Source: Thiocystis violascens DSM 198
Lineage (GTDB): Bacteria > Pseudomonadota > Gammaproteobacteria > Chromatiales > Chromatiaceae
Direction: 5' to 3'
Assembly (NCBI RefSeq): GCF_000227745.2
Contig: NC_018012.1
Location: forward strand, 4,444,501 to 4,508,500
Length of the DNA: 64,000 nt
Both the position numbers and the translations under genes were made by a program. The first letter of the stretch is position 1. Each line of letters starts with the position of its first letter. Below are positions 3,137 to 14,118 of the stretch, one piece after another. The notes under the pieces are model-generated. The model saw only the letters and a program-made list of their open reading frames with translations. It searched no databases and was not told the DNA's origin.

Positions 3137-4027
3137 TCAGACCCCGGTCACCGATGACGGCGGAGAGAACGACTGAATGGCCAGGAGGATCTCGCTCTTT
3201 TGCTGTTCCACGACCGCTCGACCCGTTTCGATGATGCGCGGGATATGGTGAACGTCCCACATGTTGATGGGAGTGGCGAAGGGCACCTTGATGATGATGA
3301 TTTCATGGTGGTGCAGGTTGATGGAGAGCGCCAGTTGGAAGCGCGTGATGGCGTCGCCCTGAATCGTATAGTAATTGGACAGACAGGCGGTGTAGCTGTC
3401 GGCCCGATGATCGAGCGGATCATGAAAGATCACGGCGATGATGACATCGATATCGCGTTTCACGGCCTCCAGGACGGGCAACGACGAGGTGTAGTAGCCA
3501 TCGCCCAGCCAGCGGCCGTTCACCTCGATCGGCGGCAGCAGCGGAAAGACGGCGCTTGACGCATAGACCGCGTCGCGCAGCAGGCCCGCTTCGATGATCA
3601 CGCCCTCGCCGGTTTGAATGTCCGTGGCTTGAATCACTGTCTTCGGGTAAAGATCCTCGACCCGGCGATCGCCGAACATCTCGTGCAGCGCGAGCTTGAG
3701 CTTGCGCGGACGAATCAGCCCGGTGCGGGTATTGAATCGGCCGAAGGGCAATTTGGCCATGCCCAGCAAGGCCCTGAAATCGACGGACGAAAACAGACTG
3801 CGGTGTGCCACCTTACCGATCAGTTCGAGAATCTTGTCGGAGTCGTAGCCGGAGCCTCGCAAGGCGCTCATGATGCTGCCGCCGCTGCATCCGACCAGCA
3901 GGTCGACTGGGATGTCCGCCTCATCCAGGAATTCAAAGAGCGGAATGGCGGCCAGGGGCTTGATCCCGCCGCTGGAGAGCACGACGGCGATTTTCGGGCG
4001 CGCGGGTCGATCTTCGGATGAACTCAT
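3137..4027 (-). CDS. Patatin-like phospholipase
   Basis: A 296-residue serine hydrolase with the patatin fold, expected to release fatty acids from lipids or acyl conjugates. The glycine-rich oxyanion segment VVLSSGGIKPLAAI sits at residues 16-29, the nucleophile elbow GCSGGS at 46-51 (Ser48), and the catalytic aspartate in GDGYY at 175-179 (Asp176), giving the Ser-Asp dyad. There is no signal peptide or membrane segment, so it should be cytoplasmic or peripheral. The start lies only 9 bases after the GH3 stop on the same strand, which strongly suggests co-transcription with the adenylating GH3 enzyme. Confidence 0.9.
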   Translation of the reverse strand: MSSSEDRPARPKIAVVLSSGGIKPLAAIPLFEFLDEADIPVDLLVGCSGGSIMSALRGSGYDSDKILELIGKVAHRSLFSSVDFRALLGMAKLPFGRFNTRTGLIRPRKLKLALHEMFGDRRVEDLYPKTVIQATDIQTGEGVIIEAGLLRDAVYASSAVFPLLPPIEVNGRWLGDGYYTSSLPVLEAVKRDIDVIIAVIFHDPLDHRADSYTACLSNYYTIQGDAITRFQLALSINLHHHEIIIIKVPFATPINMWDVHHIPRIIETGRAVVEQQKSEILLAIQSFSPPSSVTGV

Positions 4028-4036
4028 GATGACGCT

Positions 4037-5707
4037 CTACGATTGGATGTCGAGGCAGTAAACGACCCGCCCGCCCGGCGGCAACTCTGGTCCCAGGACG
4101 GAGGGCTTGAACTGGGTGTCGCGCATTCCGGACGCGACCTGATGGTCCACGATCTCGTTGAGCCAGCCCGGATGCATGAGCGAGAGCGCCGTGGGCTTGA
4201 GCATGTCGAGGTCGAGATAGCGCTTGAAGACATGGTTGATGTGGCACAGCCGCTCGTTGAAGCTGGCGAGCAGATGGCGCATGACGGCCTCGTCCGGCGC
4301 CTCTCCGGCCGGCTCGATATAGAGGTGATAGCGCGAGGTCGCCGCCTCGCCCACGACCATGAAATGCATGGGCGTCACCCCGATCTCGCCGCAGGCGGCC
4401 TGCACCGCCGTCAGGATCTGGTTGGCGCTGACCTTCTCGCCCTGCAGATTCATCACGTCGCGTCCCTTGCGCAGGAAGCTGACCAGCGGCGCGCCCGCAT
4501 AAAAGCCGGTCACCTCGACCACATCGTTGATTGAATAGCGATAGAGCCCGCCCGCCGTGGTCAGCAGGATCTGATAGGGCACGCCGATTTCCAGTTCATG
4601 CGCCATGAGTACGCGCGCGTCGGGGCGGCCGGATTCCTCTTCGGGGATGAACTCGAAGAAGTTGGTGTGGATGGTCAGCAGACCGCTGTTGCCTTCGTCG
4701 CTGATCGGGATGGTGATGTGCGCTTCGCTCGCCATGTAACCGGTATCGCGCAGCGTCAGCTCAGGCGAGCACCATTCGTGGAGATGGGGCGCGAACTGCC
4801 CCACGGTTCCGCCCTTCCAGCAGCCGATCAGCTTGAGTTCGGGCCAGTAGTCGCGCGGTTGCAGACGCCCCGCCTGCCCGGCCCGGCGTTCCAATTCGCG
4901 CGCCCGGTTCGGATTGGGCTTGAAACGACGGGACAGGACGGCGCGGATGGCGGCTGGGATATCGTAGTTTTCGGACAGCGTTCCGTCATGGATGTCGCGG
5001 AACAGGTCGGCCTTGCAGGCGTCGGCGCTCTCGAAGAGCTTGAGCAACGCGTTGGGATTGGACCCCGGAATGAAGGAGACCGACTCGGGTACCGCACAGC
5101 GCATCATGGCGTAGCGGCGCGCGCTGAAGTCGTCGATCTCGATGGCGTCGTAGGGATAGGCATATTTGGAGCGCGCCAGCGGGTGGGCGTCGCGGACCAT
5201 CAGCCCGGAAACCGCGCCATAGGGGATGTTGGTGCTGGCTGTGTGTCCATCGACGGCCTTGTTGACGACCGGAAACACCTTGCCCGACAGAAAGCGCGGG
5301 TGGCGTTCCAGGGCGGCGAAGGCCCAGACCTTCTGATTGAGCGCATTGCCCCGCGTGCTCTCGGGCGTGACCGGGATGAGCTTGGGCTTGCCGGTGGTGC
5401 CGCTGGTCTTGTTGAACATACGCGGCAGCGGACCCGCAGTGAGCACATTGGTTTCGCCCGCGATGATCCGGTCGACATAGGGGTCGACGGTCTCCCAACT
5501 CGACACGGGCACCGTCCGCGCGTACTCGGCGGGCGACTGGATGCGCGCGAAATCATGCGTCTGACCGAAAACGGTCGTGGCGTTGCGTCGCAGCCGTTCG
5601 TCGAGCAGGCGCCGCTGGGTTTGTTCCAGGTTGCGACAGCGCCCCATGAAGGAGTGCCAGCGCGCGCGCGTTACCGTCTGCATCAAGGTATAGAGAATGC
5701 CTGACAC
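4037..5707 (-). CDS. GH3 auxin-responsive-promoter family acyl-adenylating enzyme
   Basis: A 556-residue member of the GH3 family, which activates carboxylates with ATP as acyl-adenylates and in plants conjugates them to amino acids. The phosphate-binding motif NKTSGTTGKPKLIPVT is at residues 99-114. The family's second nucleotide motif appears as LYRYSINDVVEVTGF near residue 400, where many members have YRxRVGD. Length matches the family (about 500-600). It is first in a minus-strand run followed by a patatin lipase 9 bases downstream and then the ATP-grasp-like gene. Bacterial GH3 substrates are mostly unknown; a fatty or aromatic acid is plausible given the lipase partner. Confidence 0.88.
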   Translation of the reverse strand: MSGILYTLMQTVTRARWHSFMGRCRNLEQTQRRLLDERLRRNATTVFGQTHDFARIQSPAEYARTVPVSSWETVDPYVDRIIAGETNVLTAGPLPRMFNKTSGTTGKPKLIPVTPESTRGNALNQKVWAFAALERHPRFLSGKVFPVVNKAVDGHTASTNIPYGAVSGLMVRDAHPLARSKYAYPYDAIEIDDFSARRYAMMRCAVPESVSFIPGSNPNALLKLFESADACKADLFRDIHDGTLSENYDIPAAIRAVLSRRFKPNPNRARELERRAGQAGRLQPRDYWPELKLIGCWKGGTVGQFAPHLHEWCSPELTLRDTGYMASEAHITIPISDEGNSGLLTIHTNFFEFIPEEESGRPDARVLMAHELEIGVPYQILLTTAGGLYRYSINDVVEVTGFYAGAPLVSFLRKGRDVMNLQGEKVSANQILTAVQAACGEIGVTPMHFMVVGEAATSRYHLYIEPAGEAPDEAVMRHLLASFNERLCHINHVFKRYLDLDMLKPTALSLMHPGWLNEIVDHQVASGMRDTQFKPSVLGPELPPGGRVVYCLDIQS

Positions 5708-6021: not shown

Positions 6022-6360
6022 ATGAGCATTTTGTCGAGCAAAGAGGCGGGTGTACTGATCGTGATGCCGGGCATCCGGCTGGATACCCAGAGCGCGCCCG
6101 AAACCGATCAGCTGATCGTCGACGCGATCACGCGGGGCGAGACGCGCGTTCTGGTGGATTTCGCCCAGACCGGCTACATTTCCAGCGCCGGGCTGCGGGT
6201 GCTTCTGAAGGCGACCAAGCAGCTCAAGCAATCGGGCGGCGCCTTCGGCTTGTGCAACGCTAACGAGCAGATCCGCGAGGTGCTCGAGATCAGCGGCTTC
6301 GCGACCATCATCGCCTGTTATGCAAGCCTCGATGAGGCGCTGCAAGCCCTGAGCGCCTGA
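6022..6360 (+). CDS. STAS-domain anti-sigma-factor antagonist
   Basis: A single-domain STAS protein of 112 residues, the phosphorylatable antagonist of a partner-switching module. The conserved loop reads GYISSAGLRVLL at residues 51-62, with Ser54/Ser55 in the position phosphorylated in SpoIIAA/RsbV. The unphosphorylated form would bind the kinase encoded next door; the kinase would phosphorylate this loop and the SpoIIE phosphatase further on would reverse it. Its stop overlaps the start of the kinase gene (TGATG), and it heads the whole operon to 12718. No sigma factor gene is present nearby, so the final target is unknown. Confidence 0.9.
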   Translation: MSILSSKEAGVLIVMPGIRLDTQSAPETDQLIVDAITRGETRVLVDFAQTGYISSAGLRVLLKATKQLKQSGGAFGLCNANEQIREVLEISGFATIIACYASLDEALQALSA

Positions 6361-6776
6361 TGTCCGCGCCTTGCCTGCGGCTCGACTTCGTCAACCGTCC
6401 GGATGACCTCAACGCGGCGCTCGACCGGCTTGAGACCTTTCTGGAGTCCGTGCCAGCCAGTCCGAAGCTGACCTATACCGTGCGGCTGGTGCTTGAGGAA
6501 CTGCTCACCAACACCCTCAAGTACGGCTATGACGACAGCGACGAGCATCCTCTGCGCGTCGATTTCGGACTCGGTCCGCCGGCAACCCTGCGGATCGAGG
6601 ACGACGGACACCCCTTCGATCCGACCGCGCAGGCGCCGCCGGCGGCACTCGACGCCGCCGTCGAGGATCGCCCGATCGGCGGTCTTGGTCTGCACATGGT
6701 GCGGTCGCGGACGGCCTCGCTGCGCTATGCGCGTCATGACGGTCTCAACCGGCTCGATGTCGTTTTTCTGGAATAA
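6360..6776 (+). CDS. RsbW-like ATP-binding serine kinase / anti-sigma factor
   Basis: A compact GHKL ATPase domain of 138 residues (HATPase_c_2 type). The N box is LVLEELLTNTLKYGY at about residues 44-58, followed by the G1 box IEDDGHPFDP and the G2 box GGLGLHMV. In RsbW/SpoIIAB systems this protein phosphorylates the STAS antagonist and sequesters a target protein. It starts one base inside the STAS stop, a sign of translational coupling, and is followed after 86 bases by the cognate-type phosphatase. Its sequestered target is not encoded in the window. Confidence 0.9.
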   Translation: MSAPCLRLDFVNRPDDLNAALDRLETFLESVPASPKLTYTVRLVLEELLTNTLKYGYDDSDEHPLRVDFGLGPPATLRIEDDGHPFDPTAQAPPAALDAAVEDRPIGGLGLHMVRSRTASLRYARHDGLNRLDVVFLE

Positions 6777-6862
6777 GCGACGAGAACAGGACACCGTTCG
6801 CTCTGGATGCGCTGTCGCTCCTGTACGCTCGACTCCAGCCTCTCCCGCCCCGGAACCCCGTC

Positions 6863-8929
6863 ATGACAAGCGCACCGAGCAGTGGCCAATCCGTCAATCT
6901 CTTCAAAAACTATAATCGTCTGATCGGCGTTGCCTATACCCTGCTCATCCTCGCGTTGATGGTGTTTTTCGGGTATCTGCTGCACCGCAAGATGCACGAG
7001 GAAATCGATCTGATCCGAGGGCATGTGGCCAGGCATGGCCAGTTCTTCGAGTTCGTGCTGCGCTCTTCGGCCGACCAGCTCGAAACCTTCCGGATGTCGG
7101 CGGGCTCCTCCCAACCCGAACAGTCATCCGCGTCTGGTCCGACGTTGCTCGCGCAACCCCCAGGCGCCTGGCTGCGCGAGGACGCCGACCTCGGCCTGTT
7201 TCATCTGGATGCGCTCCCGGATCGCGATGCGGGCGGCAACCTGGTGGGCGAGGGCCGTCTGCAAACGCGCTCCCCGGAGTTTTATGCCGACCTGAGCACG
7301 GCGCTGCGCCTCAACAGCGAGTGGAGTTCGCTGGTGTTCAACCTGCCGAATGCCGTCCAGGCCCGGTTCGTGTCCATCCACCGCTTTCATGCGGTACTGC
7401 CTTGGGAGCGCTCCGCGGAGCTTCCCTTCGACCCCGAGGTTTACGACGGACCCGTCTGGATCCTGGGCCAGCCGGCGAATAACCCCGACCACGAAAAGTA
7501 CTGGGCGCCGGTGTCCTTCGCGGGCCTGGATCGCGGACTCGTCGCCCCCGTCGCGGCGCCCGTGTATAGCGGTCAGCGTTTCGTCGGGGTGCTCTCGATC
7601 GATACCAGTATCGATTATCTCAACCGCATCAACTCGGATTTCAACTACCCCCTGGGCCTCACTCTGCTGGTCGATCAGCGACAACAGGTGCTGACCCACC
7701 CGGAGCTGTACGCCAAACCGCTGGAGGTCGATACCACGCCAGACCTGGCGAGCGCCCTGCCGCTGGCGCTGATCGGCGAGATCGACCGCTTGCGCCAACT
7801 GCCCTCGGGCCAACCCACGACGATCAATGGATATCTCGTGATCCGCCATGCGCTGATCAGCGCCCCCTGGTCGTTATTCTATGTGGCGCCAGTGTCCGCC
7901 CTCTGGCTGGAACTTGCCTCCGACATGGGCGCGCCCATGGTCGGCGTCCTGCTGGGACTGGCCCTGTTGATGGCGCTCACCTATGTCCTGACCTCGCGCG
8001 AATTCGTCGGCCCAGCCGCCAAGCTGGTTGCGCATATCGCCGCCGAGTCCAATTTCCAGCCCGCCACCATCCCGGTCGTGCCCAGCGGTTGGCGGCCCTG
8101 GTTCGAGACCATCACGCACGCCTTTCACGAGTCGATGCAATTGGTCGCGCTGCGCCAGGAACTGGATATCGCGGCGAAGATGCAGCAGTCCATTCTGCCC
8201 CGGCGCTGGCCCGAGCATCCAGGCTACGTCCTCTGGGGAACCATGCGTTCGGCCAGGGAGGTCGGCGGCGATTTTTACGACCATTTCGAGGTGGCGGACG
8301 GCCTGCGCGGCCTGGCGGTGGCCGATGTGAGCGGCAAGGGGATTTCGGCCGGACTCTTCGGCATGGTCTCCAAGACCCTGCTGCGCTCGGCGGCTACGCC
8401 GGGCGATCTGCCGATCGGCGAGATGATCGCCAAGGTCAACGACAGTCTCGCCGAGGATAACGAGAGCTGCATGTTCGTGACCCTCTTCTATGCCCGGCTC
8501 GATCCGGAGACTGGATGCCTGGACTTCGTCAACGCGGGACATCCGTCGCCCTTGCTGATTCATGCCGATGGCCAGGTGGCTGAACTGGCACTCACCTGGG
8601 GCATGGCCCTGGGCGCGATGGACGGGCTCGACTATGCCGCCTCGTCGGTCCAGTTGCGCTCCGGCGATACGTTGTTGATGTTCAGCGATGGCGTCACCGA
8701 GGCCATGAATGAAGCCTACGAGGAGTTTGGAACCAAACGTTTGTCCGCGCTCTTCGTCGACCAGCCGCCGCCGGATCCGCGCGCGGCGGTGGAACGGGTG
8801 CTGGCGGCGGTGGATCGATTCGCCAACGGGGTCGAGCAGTCCGACGACATCACCTGTGTCGCCTTGCGCTATCGGGGCGCCGATCCCGAGCTGGATGTGC
8901 CGGCGGACACCGCGGAGGCCGCGTCATGA
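6863..8929 (+). CDS. Membrane SpoIIE/PP2C phosphatase with periplasmic sensor domain
   Basis: A 688-residue sensor phosphatase. The first membrane segment is near residues 20-40 (GVAYTLLILALMVFFGYLL), a large extracytoplasmic, probably Cache-like domain spans about 41-350, and a second membrane segment follows near 354-375. The cytoplasmic SpoIIE phosphatase begins around 430 (AAKMQQSILP) and carries the metal-binding motifs GGDFYD (about 466), DVSGKG (about 487), NAGHPSP (about 556), FSDGVTEA (about 609) and DDITCVALRY (about 660). It should dephosphorylate the STAS protein at 6022 in response to an external ligand. It shares an ATGA overlap with the next binding-protein gene, linking ligand binding to the switch. 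Confidence 0.92.
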   Translation: MTSAPSSGQSVNLFKNYNRLIGVAYTLLILALMVFFGYLLHRKMHEEIDLIRGHVARHGQFFEFVLRSSADQLETFRMSAGSSQPEQSSASGPTLLAQPPGAWLREDADLGLFHLDALPDRDAGGNLVGEGRLQTRSPEFYADLSTALRLNSEWSSLVFNLPNAVQARFVSIHRFHAVLPWERSAELPFDPEVYDGPVWILGQPANNPDHEKYWAPVSFAGLDRGLVAPVAAPVYSGQRFVGVLSIDTSIDYLNRINSDFNYPLGLTLLVDQRQQVLTHPELYAKPLEVDTTPDLASALPLALIGEIDRLRQLPSGQPTTINGYLVIRHALISAPWSLFYVAPVSALWLELASDMGAPMVGVLLGLALLMALTYVLTSREFVGPAAKLVAHIAAESNFQPATIPVVPSGWRPWFETITHAFHESMQLVALRQELDIAAKMQQSILPRRWPEHPGYVLWGTMRSAREVGGDFYDHFEVADGLRGLAVADVSGKGISAGLFGMVSKTLLRSAATPGDLPIGEMIAKVNDSLAEDNESCMFVTLFYARLDPETGCLDFVNAGHPSPLLIHADGQVAELALTWGMALGAMDGLDYAASSVQLRSGDTLLMFSDGVTEAMNEAYEEFGTKRLSALFVDQPPPDPRAAVERVLAAVDRFANGVEQSDDITCVALRYRGADPELDVPADTAEAAS

Positions 8930-9795
8930 GTCTTGTCAACCGGATGCGGTTTCCGTGCTGGGTCGTAACGGTCATGCTGGCGCTCTGGTTCAACCTTGCA
9001 GAGGCCGGGGGCGATTTGCTCGCCGAGATTCAAGACCGCGGGACACTCCTGGTCGGGGTCAAGTCGGACGTGCCGTGCTGGGGCGAGTTGGATAAGACCA
9101 GCGGCGAGATCGTCGGCCTGGAGCCGGATCTCGCACGGGATCTGGCCGAGCGACTGGGCGTGGATCTCAAGCTGATTCCGGTTCTGTCGGCCGAACGGGT
9201 CTCGGCGCTGGAAACGCGGCAGGTGGACGTCGTGATCGCCACCCTGAACGCGACGCCGGAGCGCCGCGCCCAGTTGACCCTGGTGTCGCCTTTTTACTAC
9301 GAATCGGGCGCCGGTCTGCTGGCGCGCCGCTCCGAAGGCTTCAAACACTGGTCGGAACTGCGCAACCGGCGGATCTGCTCGCGGCGCGGCTCCTTCTATA
9401 ACCGCCCGATCGCGGTCGAGTACGGCGCGGATATCGTGGCCCTGTACAGCGCCGACATCGCGCTGGCGGCGCTGCGCGACGGACGCTGCGACGGTTTTCT
9501 CGGCGATACCGCCGTGTTCGCGGTCATGTTGCAGGATCGCGAGCTGGCCGCGCGTTATGAGATGATCCTGCCCGCGCTCTATCCGACCGGCTGGGCCGTG
9601 GCCCTGCATCGCGACGCGCGCGGCGGTCGTCTGGAAGCCGCGATCTCCGAGGCCATCGTCCACTGGCACCGGAGCGGCCTGCTGGGTCGACTGGAGGAGA
9701 AGTGGGGCATCCCCCGTTCCGATTTCAGTCGGCGGATGGAAGCCGAGTGGCGCCAGGCAGCGCCTGAATCCGACCCTGAACCTGAAAGCAGATGA
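8926..9795 (+). CDS. Periplasmic substrate-binding protein, SBP family 3 (first of two)
   Basis: A 289-residue solute-binding protein with an N-terminal signal segment (hydrophobic stretch ending near LAEAGG, residues 12-28). The mature part starts LLAEIQDRGTLLVGVKSDVP and contains GLEPDLARDLAERLG and VDVVIATLNATPERR, hallmarks of the polar amino-acid-binding family. No ABC permease or ATPase gene is nearby, so it is probably not an ordinary uptake component. It may present a ligand to the SpoIIE sensor or assist the symporter downstream. The start overlaps the phosphatase stop and its own stop overlaps the next binding protein, both as ATGA. Confidence 0.88.
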   Translation: MSLVNRMRFPCWVVTVMLALWFNLAEAGGDLLAEIQDRGTLLVGVKSDVPCWGELDKTSGEIVGLEPDLARDLAERLGVDLKLIPVLSAERVSALETRQVDVVIATLNATPERRAQLTLVSPFYYESGAGLLARRSEGFKHWSELRNRRICSRRGSFYNRPIAVEYGADIVALYSADIALAALRDGRCDGFLGDTAVFAVMLQDRELAARYEMILPALYPTGWAVALHRDARGGRLEAAISEAIVHWHRSGLLGRLEEKWGIPRSDFSRRMEAEWRQAAPESDPEPESR

Positions 9796-10733
9796 GCCTA
9801 TCCCACCCGAGTCATCTCATGACGCGCTTGCCGAACGCCCTGCCCGGTGCCGTTGCGCTCAACCCGCGCTGGCATTGGGCCATCGCCCTGTTCATCGGGT
9901 TCCTGGCACTGAGTACGGTCAGTCTGGCCGAATCCCCCCGGGCAACGGTCGAGACGCGCCCCGACCCCCTGGTCTCGGTCGCCGATGGCCGACGCATCGC
10001 TCCCGACATTGCCCGCATCGTCGCGCGCGGCGAGCTGGTGGTGGCCATGGCCAACATGGATACCCCGCCTTTTTTCTACCTGCGCGACGGCCGGCTCGTC
10101 GGTCTGGAGGTGGAGATGGCCCGCGATCTGGCGCGCGAGCTTCAGGTCGCGGTACGCTTCAACCGCCAGGCCGGGAGCTTCAACGAGGTGATCGATCTGG
10201 TGGCACGGCAGGAGGCGGATGTCGGCATCAGCAAGCTGTCGCGCACGCTGGCCAGAGCGCAACAGGTACGCTTTTCCGAGCCCTATCTCAGGCTCAAGCA
10301 TGCGCTGGCGTTCAACCGGCTCGCGCTCGCGCAACTCGCCATGGACAGTCCTGTGCAGCGCGTCGTGCGCGATTTCGGCGGCACCCTCGGCGTGATCGCC
10401 GACTCATCCTTTGCCGATTTCGCCGCGCACCATTTCCCTCAGGCCAACATCCAGACCTATCCAGACTGGCCAGAGGCCGTCCGGGCGGTGCGGACGGGCG
10501 AAATCATCGGCGTCTATCGCGACGAATTCGAAATCAAACGTCTGCTGAAAAGCGATCCCACCGCCTCGCTGACCCTGCGCACCGTGACGCTGACGGATCT
10601 CGAGGATACGCTGAGCATCGCCGTCGGCGTGGACGATCCGGTGCTGCTCGATGTCGTCAATCTGTTTCTCGCGCAGCGCGTCAACAAGCTCGATATCGAC
10701 AAGGTTCTGCATGCCGATACGCATTTACGGTAA
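9792..10733 (+). CDS. Periplasmic substrate-binding protein, SBP family 3 (second of two)
   Basis: A 313-residue paralogue-type binding protein. A hydrophobic signal segment lies near residues 26-46, ending LSTVSLAES. The mature region shows RGELVVAMANMDTPPFFY, GLEVEMARDLARELQ, EADVGISKLSRTLARAQ and VRFSEPYL, the usual amino-acid-binding signature with a ligand arginine candidate in the SRTLARA segment. Sequence similarity to the preceding protein is only moderate, so they may bind different ligands. Coupled by ATGA overlap to the gene before it and followed after 9 bases by the symporter gene. Confidence 0.88.
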   Translation: MSLSHPSHLMTRLPNALPGAVALNPRWHWAIALFIGFLALSTVSLAESPRATVETRPDPLVSVADGRRIAPDIARIVARGELVVAMANMDTPPFFYLRDGRLVGLEVEMARDLARELQVAVRFNRQAGSFNEVIDLVARQEADVGISKLSRTLARAQQVRFSEPYLRLKHALAFNRLALAQLAMDSPVQRVVRDFGGTLGVIADSSFADFAAHHFPQANIQTYPDWPEAVRAVRTGEIIGVYRDEFEIKRLLKSDPTASLTLRTVTLTDLEDTLSIAVGVDDPVLLDVVNLFLAQRVNKLDIDKVLHADTHLR

Positions 10734-10742
10734 GTCGCCCTC

Positions 10743-12032
10743 ATGACCCGGCTGAAAAACCTGGCCTTAAACCCTTGGATCATCCTGCTCAGTCTGGCGG
10801 GCGGCCTGACGTTAGGCGCCTATCTGCCCGCGTGGTCGCTGAAGCTGGCGTTCGTGGGTCACGTCTATCTGGATCTGATGAAGATGGTCGTGTTGCCCTT
10901 CATGCTGTCGGCCGTCATCCTCAGCACGCAACGCCTGATCCAGGAAGGCAGCGGCGGCCGGCTCTTTGGGCGGGTATTGTTGGTGTTCGCGGTCTTCGCG
11001 TTCGCCGCCGCCGTCATCGGTGCCGGTACGATGCTGACGCTACGCCCCGGCGCCGATCTACCGCCGGAAACGCTGGACACCTTTGGCGAGATCGTCGGCG
11101 GCGACCTTAACTCCAACAACCTCGCCATGGAACTCAACGGAACGGATCCGCGGCCTCCCGCGACGGGCCTGGAAACGTTGCTGCTCAGTCTGGTGCCATC
11201 CAACATCTTCGCGGCGCTGACCAAGGACGAGACGCTCAAGATCCTGGTGTTTTCCATCCTGCTCGGCATCGCCGTCGGTCAGGTGCCAAGGGATGTCTCG
11301 GACGGTTTCAGCAAGACCCTGGAGACTCTCTATCAGGGCTGTCAGACGATCATGCAGTGGATGAATTATCTGCTGCCGCTGGTGCTGCTGACCATGAGCG
11401 CCGGACAACTGGCCAAGACCGGTGTCGAGCCGTTGCTGGCCATGACGCAATTCGTGGCCGCCTTCGCGCTGGCCTCGGCGCTCCTGCTCCTGCCGGCCAT
11501 CTGGATCATCTGGCAGCGCGGCCCTTTGTCCCTGGGGGCCACGCTCGCCGCGCTGCGCGGACCCTTCGCGCTGGCAATCGCCACGCGCAACAGCGTGATC
11601 TGCATGCCGAGCATGATCTACTCGCTCACCCGGCAATTGGAGTTCGCCCGCGCTCAGGTCGAGCTGCTGGTGCCGCTCAGCGTGTCTCTGTTGCGCATTG
11701 GTCCAATCGTCTATTACGTCTGCGCGACCCTGTTCATCGCCCAGCTTTACGGGCTCGCGCTCGATGCCGGCGAACTCGCGCTGGTCATCACGGCGTCCAT
11801 CCTGGCCGGGTTTGCCTCGGCCGGCATGACCGGTTTGGCGATCGTCTCACTGACCAGCATCACCTGCGGCTATCTCGGGCTACCCTTCGAGGCCGCCTTC
11901 ATCCTGTTTCTGGCGGTCGATCCCATCTGCGACATTCTGCGCACGCTGGTGCTCGTGATCGGCAACACCGCCTCGGTGGCGCTGATCGGCGCGCGTCCCG
12001 CGCGGGTCACGGAGACCGCATGTCTTTCATAG
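10743..12032 (+). CDS. Dicarboxylate/amino acid:cation symporter (DAACS/SDF family)
   Basis: A 429-residue inner-membrane secondary transporter of the sodium/proton-dicarboxylate (glutamate/aspartate) symporter family. Eight membrane segments and two re-entrant hairpins fit the length. Recognisable parts are DLMKMVVLPFMLSAVILS (segment 3), the hairpin region around ATRNSVICMPSM, and the substrate-contacting end SAGMTGLAIVSLTS followed by AVDPICDILRTLVLVIGN, whose Asp-x-x-Arg-Thr recalls the Asp/Arg pair that binds the substrate in GltPh. The NMDGT motif of classical members is not evident, so the substrate may differ. The last 13 bases overlap the racemase gene. Confidence 0.88.
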   Translation: MTRLKNLALNPWIILLSLAGGLTLGAYLPAWSLKLAFVGHVYLDLMKMVVLPFMLSAVILSTQRLIQEGSGGRLFGRVLLVFAVFAFAAAVIGAGTMLTLRPGADLPPETLDTFGEIVGGDLNSNNLAMELNGTDPRPPATGLETLLLSLVPSNIFAALTKDETLKILVFSILLGIAVGQVPRDVSDGFSKTLETLYQGCQTIMQWMNYLLPLVLLTMSAGQLAKTGVEPLLAMTQFVAAFALASALLLLPAIWIIWQRGPLSLGATLAALRGPFALAIATRNSVICMPSMIYSLTRQLEFARAQVELLVPLSVSLLRIGPIVYYVCATLFIAQLYGLALDAGELALVITASILAGFASAGMTGLAIVSLTSITCGYLGLPFEAAFILFLAVDPICDILRTLVLVIGNTASVALIGARPARVTETACLS

Positions 12033-12718
12033 GCGTTCTTGGCGGGATGGGGCCCGCCGCGACAGTCGATTTCATGGCCAAGCTGGTGGCGCTGACGCCC
12101 GCTTGCTGCGATCAGGATCACCTGCCGGTCGTGGTGGTCACGCTGCCTCGGGTACCCGACCGCAGCGCCGCGATTCTCGGGCGCGGCCAGGATCCGCTAC
12201 CCGCTCTCAAGGAAGGCATCGCGCTGCTCAACCGCGCCGACGTGGGTCTGGTCGTCATTCCGTGCAGCACCTCGCATCATTGGTACGACGAACTTAGCGC
12301 GGCAAGCCACGCGCCCATCCTGCACATCGCGCGGGCGGCGGTGTCACGGGTGCCGCGGGGCGAGCGCGCCCTGATCCTGGCCACCCGCGGCGCCCTGGCC
12401 TCGGGCTTTTTCCAGCGCGAACTGGCCGCCTGGGAGACACCCTTCGATATCCCCTCGCCGGATGACGAGCAAGTCCTGGTGGACGATTGCATTCGTTTGA
12501 TCAAGTCCGGGCAGCCCGAACCGGCCGGCGCCTGCCTGGAGCGGGTGCTCGTCAAGGCTCGGACGCGCGGCGCGCGGACGGCGATCCTGGGTTGTACCGA
12601 ACTGCCGCTCGCCGCCGTTTATGCCGAGCGGCATTCATTGGGCTTGATCGACTGCACCCTGGAACTGGCGCGTTGCGCGGTGGAGTACGCCTTGCAACGC
12701 GGCTGGAATTGCGCCTAA
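12020..12718 (+). CDS. Aspartate/glutamate racemase family protein
   Basis: A 232-residue cytoplasmic racemase of the Asp/Glu/hydantoin superfamily, which interconverts L and D amino acids without cofactor through two cysteines. The N-terminus IGVLGGMGPAATVDF is diagnostic. The two catalytic cysteines are Cys82 in VIPCSTSHH, where most members have PCNTAH, and Cys192 in ILGCTELPL. The ATG at 12020 is chosen because it opens directly on the conserved motif; it overlaps the symporter gene by 13 bases. Position suggests that the imported amino acid or its enantiomer is the substrate and perhaps also the signal read by the operon. Confidence 0.9.
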   Translation: MSFIGVLGGMGPAATVDFMAKLVALTPACCDQDHLPVVVVTLPRVPDRSAAILGRGQDPLPALKEGIALLNRADVGLVVIPCSTSHHWYDELSAASHAPILHIARAAVSRVPRGERALILATRGALASGFFQRELAAWETPFDIPSPDDEQVLVDDCIRLIKSGQPEPAGACLERVLVKARTRGARTAILGCTELPLAAVYAERHSLGLIDCTLELARCAVEYALQRGWNCA

Positions 12719-13953: not shown

Positions 13954-13982
13954 TTCGCCCCCATCCGCCCGATACCCTGACA

Positions 13983-14094
13983 CTGACCACTGACCACTGA
14001 CCACTGACCACTGACCACTGACCACTGACCACTGACCACTGACCACTGACCACTGACCACTGACCACTGACCACTGACCACTGACCACTGACCA
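13983..14094 (+). repeat. Tandem heptamer array, 16 copies of CTGACCA
   Basis: Sixteen uninterrupted, identical copies of the 7-base unit CTGACCA, preceded by one unit lacking a base (CTGACA from 13977) and followed by CT. The array fills the maf-rng gap and ends 22 bases ahead of the rng start. On the opposite strand it reads as repeated WSVVSGQ, which makes long false reading frames. Perfect copies imply recent slippage expansion, so copy number probably differs between strains. Confidence 0.98.
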
Positions 14095-14118
14095 CTCATT
14101 AACCGAGACAACGATTCC

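Follow-up and report, generated by a model that had tools for sequence, protein, structure and literature searches.

Gene organization of the locus

The subject of this analysis is a seven-gene operon of Thiocystis violascens DSM 198, located in a 64,000-nt window of the closed 5.02-Mb genome (NC_018012.1; genome G000), and all coordinates given for it are window positions. The plus strand at 6022–12718 encoded a STAS antagonist, an RsbW-like kinase, a SpoIIE phosphatase, two substrate-binding proteins (SBP1 and SBP2), a DAACS-fold membrane protein (SDF'), and an Asp/Glu racemase. A preliminary description of this DNA had proposed seven same-strand genes with these boundaries and identities, which were confirmed by profile searches and coordinates.

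6022–6360, plus strand: STAS antagonist (RsbV/SpoIIAA-like); PF01740, E 2.5e-16; TIGR00377 above cut-off; phospho-acceptor Ser in YISSAGLR
6360–6776, plus strand: RsbW-like GHKL serine kinase (HATPase_c_2); PF13581, E 2.8e-20
6863–8929, plus strand: SpoIIE membrane phosphatase, with a transmembrane segment, a dCache-like periplasmic domain, a second transmembrane segment, a linker, and a SpoIIE/PP2C domain; PF07228, E 7e-48
8926–9795, plus strand: SBP1, SBP_bac_3 amino-acid binding protein with a signal peptide; PF00497, E 1.3e-20
9792–10733, plus strand: SBP2, SBP_bac_3 binding protein; PF00497, E 2.7e-17
10743–12032, plus strand: SDF', DAACS-fold membrane protein; PF00375, E 7.9e-56
12020–12718, plus strand: Asp/Glu-racemase family enzyme, CuyB subfamily by model; NF052483, 206 bits against a cut-off of 190

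The genes overlapped by 1 base (STAS/RsbW), 4 bases (SpoIIE/SBP1 and SBP1/SBP2), and 13 bases (SDF'/racemase). Gaps of 86 bases between RsbW and SpoIIE, which had no earlier in-frame start, and of 9 bases between SBP2 and SDF' were also present. With the exception of the SpoIIE dCache domain, all Pfam matches of the seven genes were far above cut-off. No ABC permease or ATPase gene, as expected of an ABC amino-acid uptake system, was found in the operon or among its neighbours.

Fold and sodium sites of SDF'

SDF' matched PF00375 with 190 bits (cut-off 27.9), and its AlphaFold2 model (predicted local distance difference test, pLDDT, 76) had the DAACS fold, with a TM-score of ~0.77 to GltPh and ASCT2 in Foldseek. 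In the alignment with GltPh, the NMDGT motif of transmembrane helix 7 was replaced by LRxGP, and the serine-rich tip of hairpin 1 (HP1) was altered. The positions of N310, D312, N401, and D405, which form Na+ sites in DAACS symporters, were occupied by Leu, Ile, Leu, and Asn, respectively. Among the close relatives of SDF', N310, D312, and D405 were lost in 82/82, and Arg or Lys was located at M311 in 81/82. The methionine of NMDGT, replaced in SDF', coordinates Na+ in GltPh and GltTk (PMC8431971).

The substrate-site residues were kept in the same relatives, R397 in 82/82, T398 and D390 in 81/82 each, and D394 in 69. D394 is the ligand of the amino group in GltPh. By comparison, 26 ordinary DAACS neighbours kept NMDG and D405 together with the substrate-site residues. 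The scores of SDF' were below the cut-offs of the equivalog models for DctA (115 vs 513 bits) and GltP (104 vs 638 bits). Two ordinary DAACS proteins are also encoded in the genome. Because the Na+-site residues were lost, the label 'Na+ symporter' is probably wrong, and SDF' is probably no ordinary member of the DAACS symporters. The name 'DAACS symporter' in the preliminary description thus stood as to the fold, but not as to an ordinary symporter. In other transporter families, CaiT and ApcT are examples of Na+-independent proteins in which a fixed positive charge substitutes for Na+, so both Na+-independent transport and pure sensing are possible for SDF'.

Pairing of SBP2 with SDF'

The search for SDF' loci covered 84,980 species genomes as well as 800 genomes sampled from Gammaproteobacteria and Pseudomonadota, and close relatives of the query are over-represented in the resulting tally. 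An SBP gene was located directly upstream of SDF' on the same strand in 91 of the 94 loci; the other three were one locus with the SBP gene directly downstream, one contig start, and one gene fragment. Ordinary sodium-type DAACS loci from the same family had an SBP gene in 0/25 cases within the 1.5 kb fetched, and the only other DAACS gene accompanied by an SBP gene (genome G023) also had degenerate Na+ sites. The amino-acid pocket of SBP2 was nearly invariant, with R155, D143, and T152 in 88/88 homologues and D244 in 86/88. Judged by these alignments and gene neighbourhoods, SBP2 and SDF' are the conserved core of the operon, and their pairing is obligate. Distant SBP–SDF' pairs (~22–44% identity), some of them alone, were observed across other Pseudomonadota (L132–L135 and L147–L152), which indicates that the pair is old.

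Partner-switch genes

The three switch genes look functional by their motifs. The serine motif ISSAGLR of the STAS protein was kept in 5/5 orthologues, as were the N-box ELLTN (E-x-x-x-N) and the GGLGL(H) lid motifs of the RsbW-like kinase. The PP2C motifs GGDFYD, ADVSGKG, DGVTEA, and DDIT of SpoIIE were kept in 4/4 aligned sequences. The locus therefore had the features of an RsbU/V/W-type switch, namely the STAS phospho-acceptor Ser, the GHKL N-box, and the PP2C metal aspartates. SpoIIE had two membrane segments around a periplasmic domain, which matched dCache_1 with an E value of 2.4e-4 in the window, below the gathering score, and with 6.8e-7 and 1.3e-6 in two orthologues.

No sigma-factor gene was found in any of the five loci carrying the SpoIIE orthologue, and no SigB, SigF, or SigG profile gave a match above cut-off in the whole genome, in agreement with the preliminary description of the locus; the matches below cut-off were at the level given by any sigma-70 family protein. 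That description had also regarded a partner switch lacking a sigma factor as unusual, a view that did not hold, since SiaABC is a partner switch that targets a diguanylate cyclase and not a sigma factor (PMC7647112). Because such sigma-free switches are established, the missing sigma factor is not strange in itself.

Conservation within Chromatiaceae

Close SDF' homologues were present in 6 of the 96 Chromatiaceae-family genomes searched. Five of these (G000, G031, G049, G073, and G076) encoded a SpoIIE orthologue (59–92% identity), located directly upstream of SBP1 in 5/5, and SBP1 was confined to loci with SpoIIE. Sister species lacking SDF' had distant SpoIIE proteins only. The order SpoIIE–SBP1–SBP2–SDF'–racemase recurred in G049, G073, and G076, which argues that it is not due to chance. 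The STAS and RsbW genes were located upstream in the window and in G049, downstream of the racemase in convergent orientation in G073, and divided between the two strands in G076; since their linkage survived these rearrangements, a real functional tie is argued. In G073 and G076, SBP1 and SBP2 were fused into one protein with two SBP_bac_3 domains, which indicates that both binding proteins act together.

The preliminary description had offered, as its own check, that the trio of STAS, kinase, and phosphatase genes should adjoin the transport genes in related genomes. This was the case in all five Chromatiaceae genomes with a SpoIIE orthologue, but not in the ~88 other loci with an SBP–SDF' pair, from which the trio was absent; the trio is therefore a lineage-specific addition. 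A conserved functional unit of the trio with the binding, transport, and racemase genes is thus supported by the comparison of sequences, in a small clade only.

Two further observations were made in these genomes. In G031 (T. violacea), peptidase-C39 ABC exporter genes adjoined SDF', which reflects either the insertion of an island or an artefact of the contig. In G073 (locus L036, ~6064–7017), a class III cyclase–PilZ gene ended 6 bases before SpoIIE, and the long N-terminal part of its open reading frame was an artefact. This gene was not adopted as the target of the switch. Its T. violascens homologue (C1:1030204) was located elsewhere, at a conserved place of its own, and the operon probably just landed behind the cyclase–PilZ gene in G073.

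Racemase and ligand class

The racemase contained both catalytic cysteines (IPCSTSHH and LGCTELP). The model that it matched, NF052483, describes the cysteate racemase CuyB, and 9/10 relatives also scored above the cut-off. The match was not adopted as proof of a cysteate substrate, since every relative, including those in type VI secretion system (T6SS) clusters, matches the model. Cysteate racemisation is predicted by the model score, and Asp or Glu is an equally possible substrate.

A racemase gene was present in 62/76 loci with D394 in SDF' and in 0/17 without it, a distribution that reflects few independent events. One freshwater Burkholderiales clade had lost both R276 and D394, and the racemase was missing from it as well. 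The coincidence of D394 loss with racemase absence fits a racemase that acts on the ligand of SDF', within the limit of those few events. We infer an acidic amino acid as the ligand class, of the Asp, Glu, or cysteate type and in the L or D form.

Other genomic settings of the pair

Approximately 59 of 93 SDF' loci were located inside T6SS-b clusters, between vgrG/PAAR and tssK, and were followed by the racemase and then by a second SDF gene. Such a block of Paraburkholderia phymatum has been noted by annotation; the authors of that study raised dicarboxylate sensing by the symporters as a question, and made no deletion of these genes (PMC8356804). No description of an SBP-dependent DAACS system, or of the present operon, was found in the open-access literature. 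The preliminary statement that no system of such composition had been described thus held for the whole operon, but not for its SBP–SDF'–racemase part, which is contained in that annotated block.

The second SDF protein of the T6SS-b clusters (L043–L105; for example, L066, 11988–13385) had lost all Na+-site residues in 40/40 and had Arg at the NMDGT methionine, and it forms a second, distinct degenerate DAACS subfamily.

The pair was also found in settings other than secretion clusters. A dCache class III cyclase adjoined it in Limnohabitans, Rhodoferax, and others (L038, L109, L110, L114, and L118). In the alphaproteobacteria-like genomes G504 and G716 it was accompanied by the racemase alone, and several Burkholderiales carried SBP, SDF', and racemase without any sensor gene. 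As a separate observation, a 214-residue formyltransferase-like protein was conserved beside the pair in freshwater Burkholderiales (L106 and L109–L119), with a T6SS context in L111 and L113.

In a quick tree, the SpoIIE-linked SDF' sequences formed one clade (Shimodaira–Hasegawa-like approximate likelihood ratio test, 100), nested in a T6SS-rich part (88–90, no bootstrap). The T. violascens genome has a T6SS ~1.9 Mb from the locus and none near it. TssK was found in none of G049, G073 (two contigs), and G076 (one contig), all of which carry the whole locus. Since three of the five genomes with the trio thus lack TssK, the T6SS was rejected as the output of the switch.

Surroundings of the operon

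The downstream neighbour of the racemase was rlmH, judged to lie outside the unit. Upstream, also outside the unit, a divergent GH3-family adenylating enzyme (4037–5707, minus strand) scored 99 bits against a cut-off of 620 with a lyso-ornithine lipid synthetase model, and was adjoined by a patatin-like gene (3137–4027, minus strand). Seventeen tandem copies of the 7-base unit CTGACCA (99% match) were located at 13977–14096, between Maf-like and RNase G/CafA genes. Rfam and tRNA scans of the 64-kb window gave no matches.

Proposed mechanism and alternatives

The operon may be a periplasmic sensing unit for acidic amino acids with a partner-switch output, in which SDF' serves as a co-sensor of SpoIIE; we assign this reading a probability of about 0.4. 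SBP1 and SBP2 would capture an acidic amino acid and pass it to SDF', which would be either a Na+-independent exchanger or carrier or a pure receptor, with an arginine in the Na+ region. SDF' and the dCache–SpoIIE phosphatase would form a co-sensor pair comparable to DctA and DcuS, and the ligand state would set the phosphatase activity. The RsbW-like kinase would phosphorylate the STAS serine, the phosphatase would remove the phosphate, and the freed partner would act on a target encoded elsewhere. The racemase would interconvert the ligand enantiomers after entry. By analogy, a DctA-like co-sensor of SpoIIE is the most likely role of SDF'. The direction of co-sensing, the physical contacts, the target, and the ligand class are all meant here as predictions.

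The 4-base overlap of SpoIIE with SBP1, their adjacency in 5/5 genomes, and the linkage of STAS and RsbW despite rearrangement favour the co-sensor proposal, and the SBP–SDF' pair adjoins other signalling outputs, the dCache cyclases, as well. The near-constant pairing of SBP and SDF', the DAACS fold with lost Na+-site residues and retained R397, T398, and D390, the invariant amino-acid pocket of SBP2, the precedents of DctA–DcuS and SiaABCD, and the joint absence of D394 and racemase, the last from few independent events, also count in its favour. Several points weigh on the other side. The dCache match of SpoIIE was weak, its structure model was poor (pLDDT 51.6), and a profile comparison of the sensor halves of SpoIIE and the cyclases was weak (41% probability); a sensor half common to both was not adopted for this weak similarity. 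In G031, the operon was interrupted between SBP2 and SDF' (L131 and L034/L103). The T6SS-b clusters and G504/G716 had no adjacent sensor protein, which fits plain transport, and the loss of the Na+ sites is also compatible with a proton-coupled or exchange transporter.

Those last points lead to the main alternative, which we consider possible though doubtful. Here, SBP2 and SDF' would form a secondary transporter that depends on a binding protein but not on Na+, comparable to TRAP but built on the DAACS fold; its substrate would be channelled by the racemase, while the switch would sense this substrate with the dCache domain of SpoIIE and regulate uptake, racemisation, or their expression. 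The loci with SBP, SDF', and racemase and no sensor gene, the conserved SBP pocket, the retained R397 and D394 of SDF', and the precedent of TRAP and TTT for SBP-dependent secondary transport all agree with it. The coupling-ion residues are gone, however, with no replacement coupling site identified, two ordinary DAACS proteins are already available in the genome, and signalling or secretion genes accompany most loci. Transport and co-sensing cannot be told apart from the order of the genes. The closed circuit proposed in the preliminary description, in which the switch would control uptake or racemisation, may or may not apply. It is rather improbable that the same amino acid acts on the trio and on the transport genes without any contact between them, and that the switch controls an unlinked target in biofilm formation, second-messenger signalling, or metabolism while the transport genes merely take up the ligand as a nutrient. 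Remote targets are common among partner switches, and across the four contexts compared, no conserved target gene flanked the locus, but the tight translational coupling of SpoIIE to SBP1 and the confinement of SBP1 to SpoIIE loci speak against independence. A relic or satellite of T6SS-b, with the switch controlling the T6SS, would agree with the prevalence of T6SS loci, the nesting of the SpoIIE clade, and the distant T6SS of the host; the three genomes with the whole locus and no TssK largely refute it, and we give it very little credence. Equally slight is the chance of a classical switch acting on an unlinked sigma factor, to which the intact catalytic motifs of STAS, RsbW, and PP2C would be suited, in view of the five loci free of sigma genes and the genome free of SigB/F/G matches above cut-off.

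Apart from its role in this operon, the SBP2–SDF' pair appears to be a module for sensing or uptake that bacteria reuse and that has been overlooked. A broader view, which we regard as unlikely on present grounds, is that SBP_bac_3 and SDF' constitute a distinct, unrecognised binding-protein-dependent class on the DAACS fold, with a fixed arginine replacing Na+, that was reused as a swappable receptor for PP2C switches, dCache cyclases, and T6SS-b. If these ideas are true, many genes annotated as 'sodium:dicarboxylate symporter' and 'amino acid ABC transporter substrate-binding protein' would be halves of one Na+-independent system that belongs to no textbook class, partner switches would gain a defined chemical input, and the amino-acid transport genes in T6SS-b clusters would be explained. 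SDF' would also be a natural SLC1-fold variant with Na+ coupling removed by evolution, useful for the study of coupling in glutamate transporters.

Comparison with known systems

SDF' has the same fold as the DAACS/SLC1 proteins GltPh/GltTk, EAAT, and DctA/GltP, and some of their substrate-site residues (R397, D394, D390, and T398). In contrast to them, its Na+-site residues, NMDGT motif, and serine-rich HP1 are replaced, and it has a constant SBP partner. TRAP and TTT systems are secondary transporters that depend on binding proteins, and SBP2–SDF' resembles them as a binding-protein-dependent, non-ABC arrangement. Their membrane subunits are unrelated to SDF', however, and their SBPs belong to other families; in place of the DctP-type SBP and DctQ/DctM of TRAP, the operon has an SBP of PF00497 (SBP_bac_3) and a membrane protein of PF00375 (DAACS fold).

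The P. phymatum T6SS-b (i4a) genes Bphy_5989–5992 encode an SBP, SDF', a racemase, and a second SDF, and are homologous gene by gene, with 57% identity of SDF' in Paraburkholderia (PMC8356804). They differ from the present operon in their position between vgrG/PAAR and tssK, a single SBP, the absence of partner-switch genes, and the extra SDF without Na+ sites.

SiaABCD of Pseudomonas aeruginosa likewise contains a membrane PP2C phosphatase with an extracytoplasmic domain, a kinase, and a STAS-like antagonist, and a non-sigma target and a link to carbon supply are probable shared features (PMC7647112). SiaABCD lacks binding proteins, a DAACS protein, and a racemase, and its target gene siaD is located inside its operon, whereas this locus has no GGDEF gene and its SpoIIE scores 29.2 bits against the SiaA cut-off of 700.

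In E. coli, DctA is a structural co-regulator and obligate co-sensor of DcuS (PMC8307970, PMC4280142). The ion sites of DctA are intact, and it is a genuine transporter that works without a binding protein; the output of that pair is a histidine kinase rather than a PP2C partner switch. In both systems, a DAACS-fold protein accompanies a membrane sensor with a periplasmic ligand-binding domain; the likeness here comes from gene adjacency and this precedent, and a contact between SDF' and SpoIIE is proposed on that basis.

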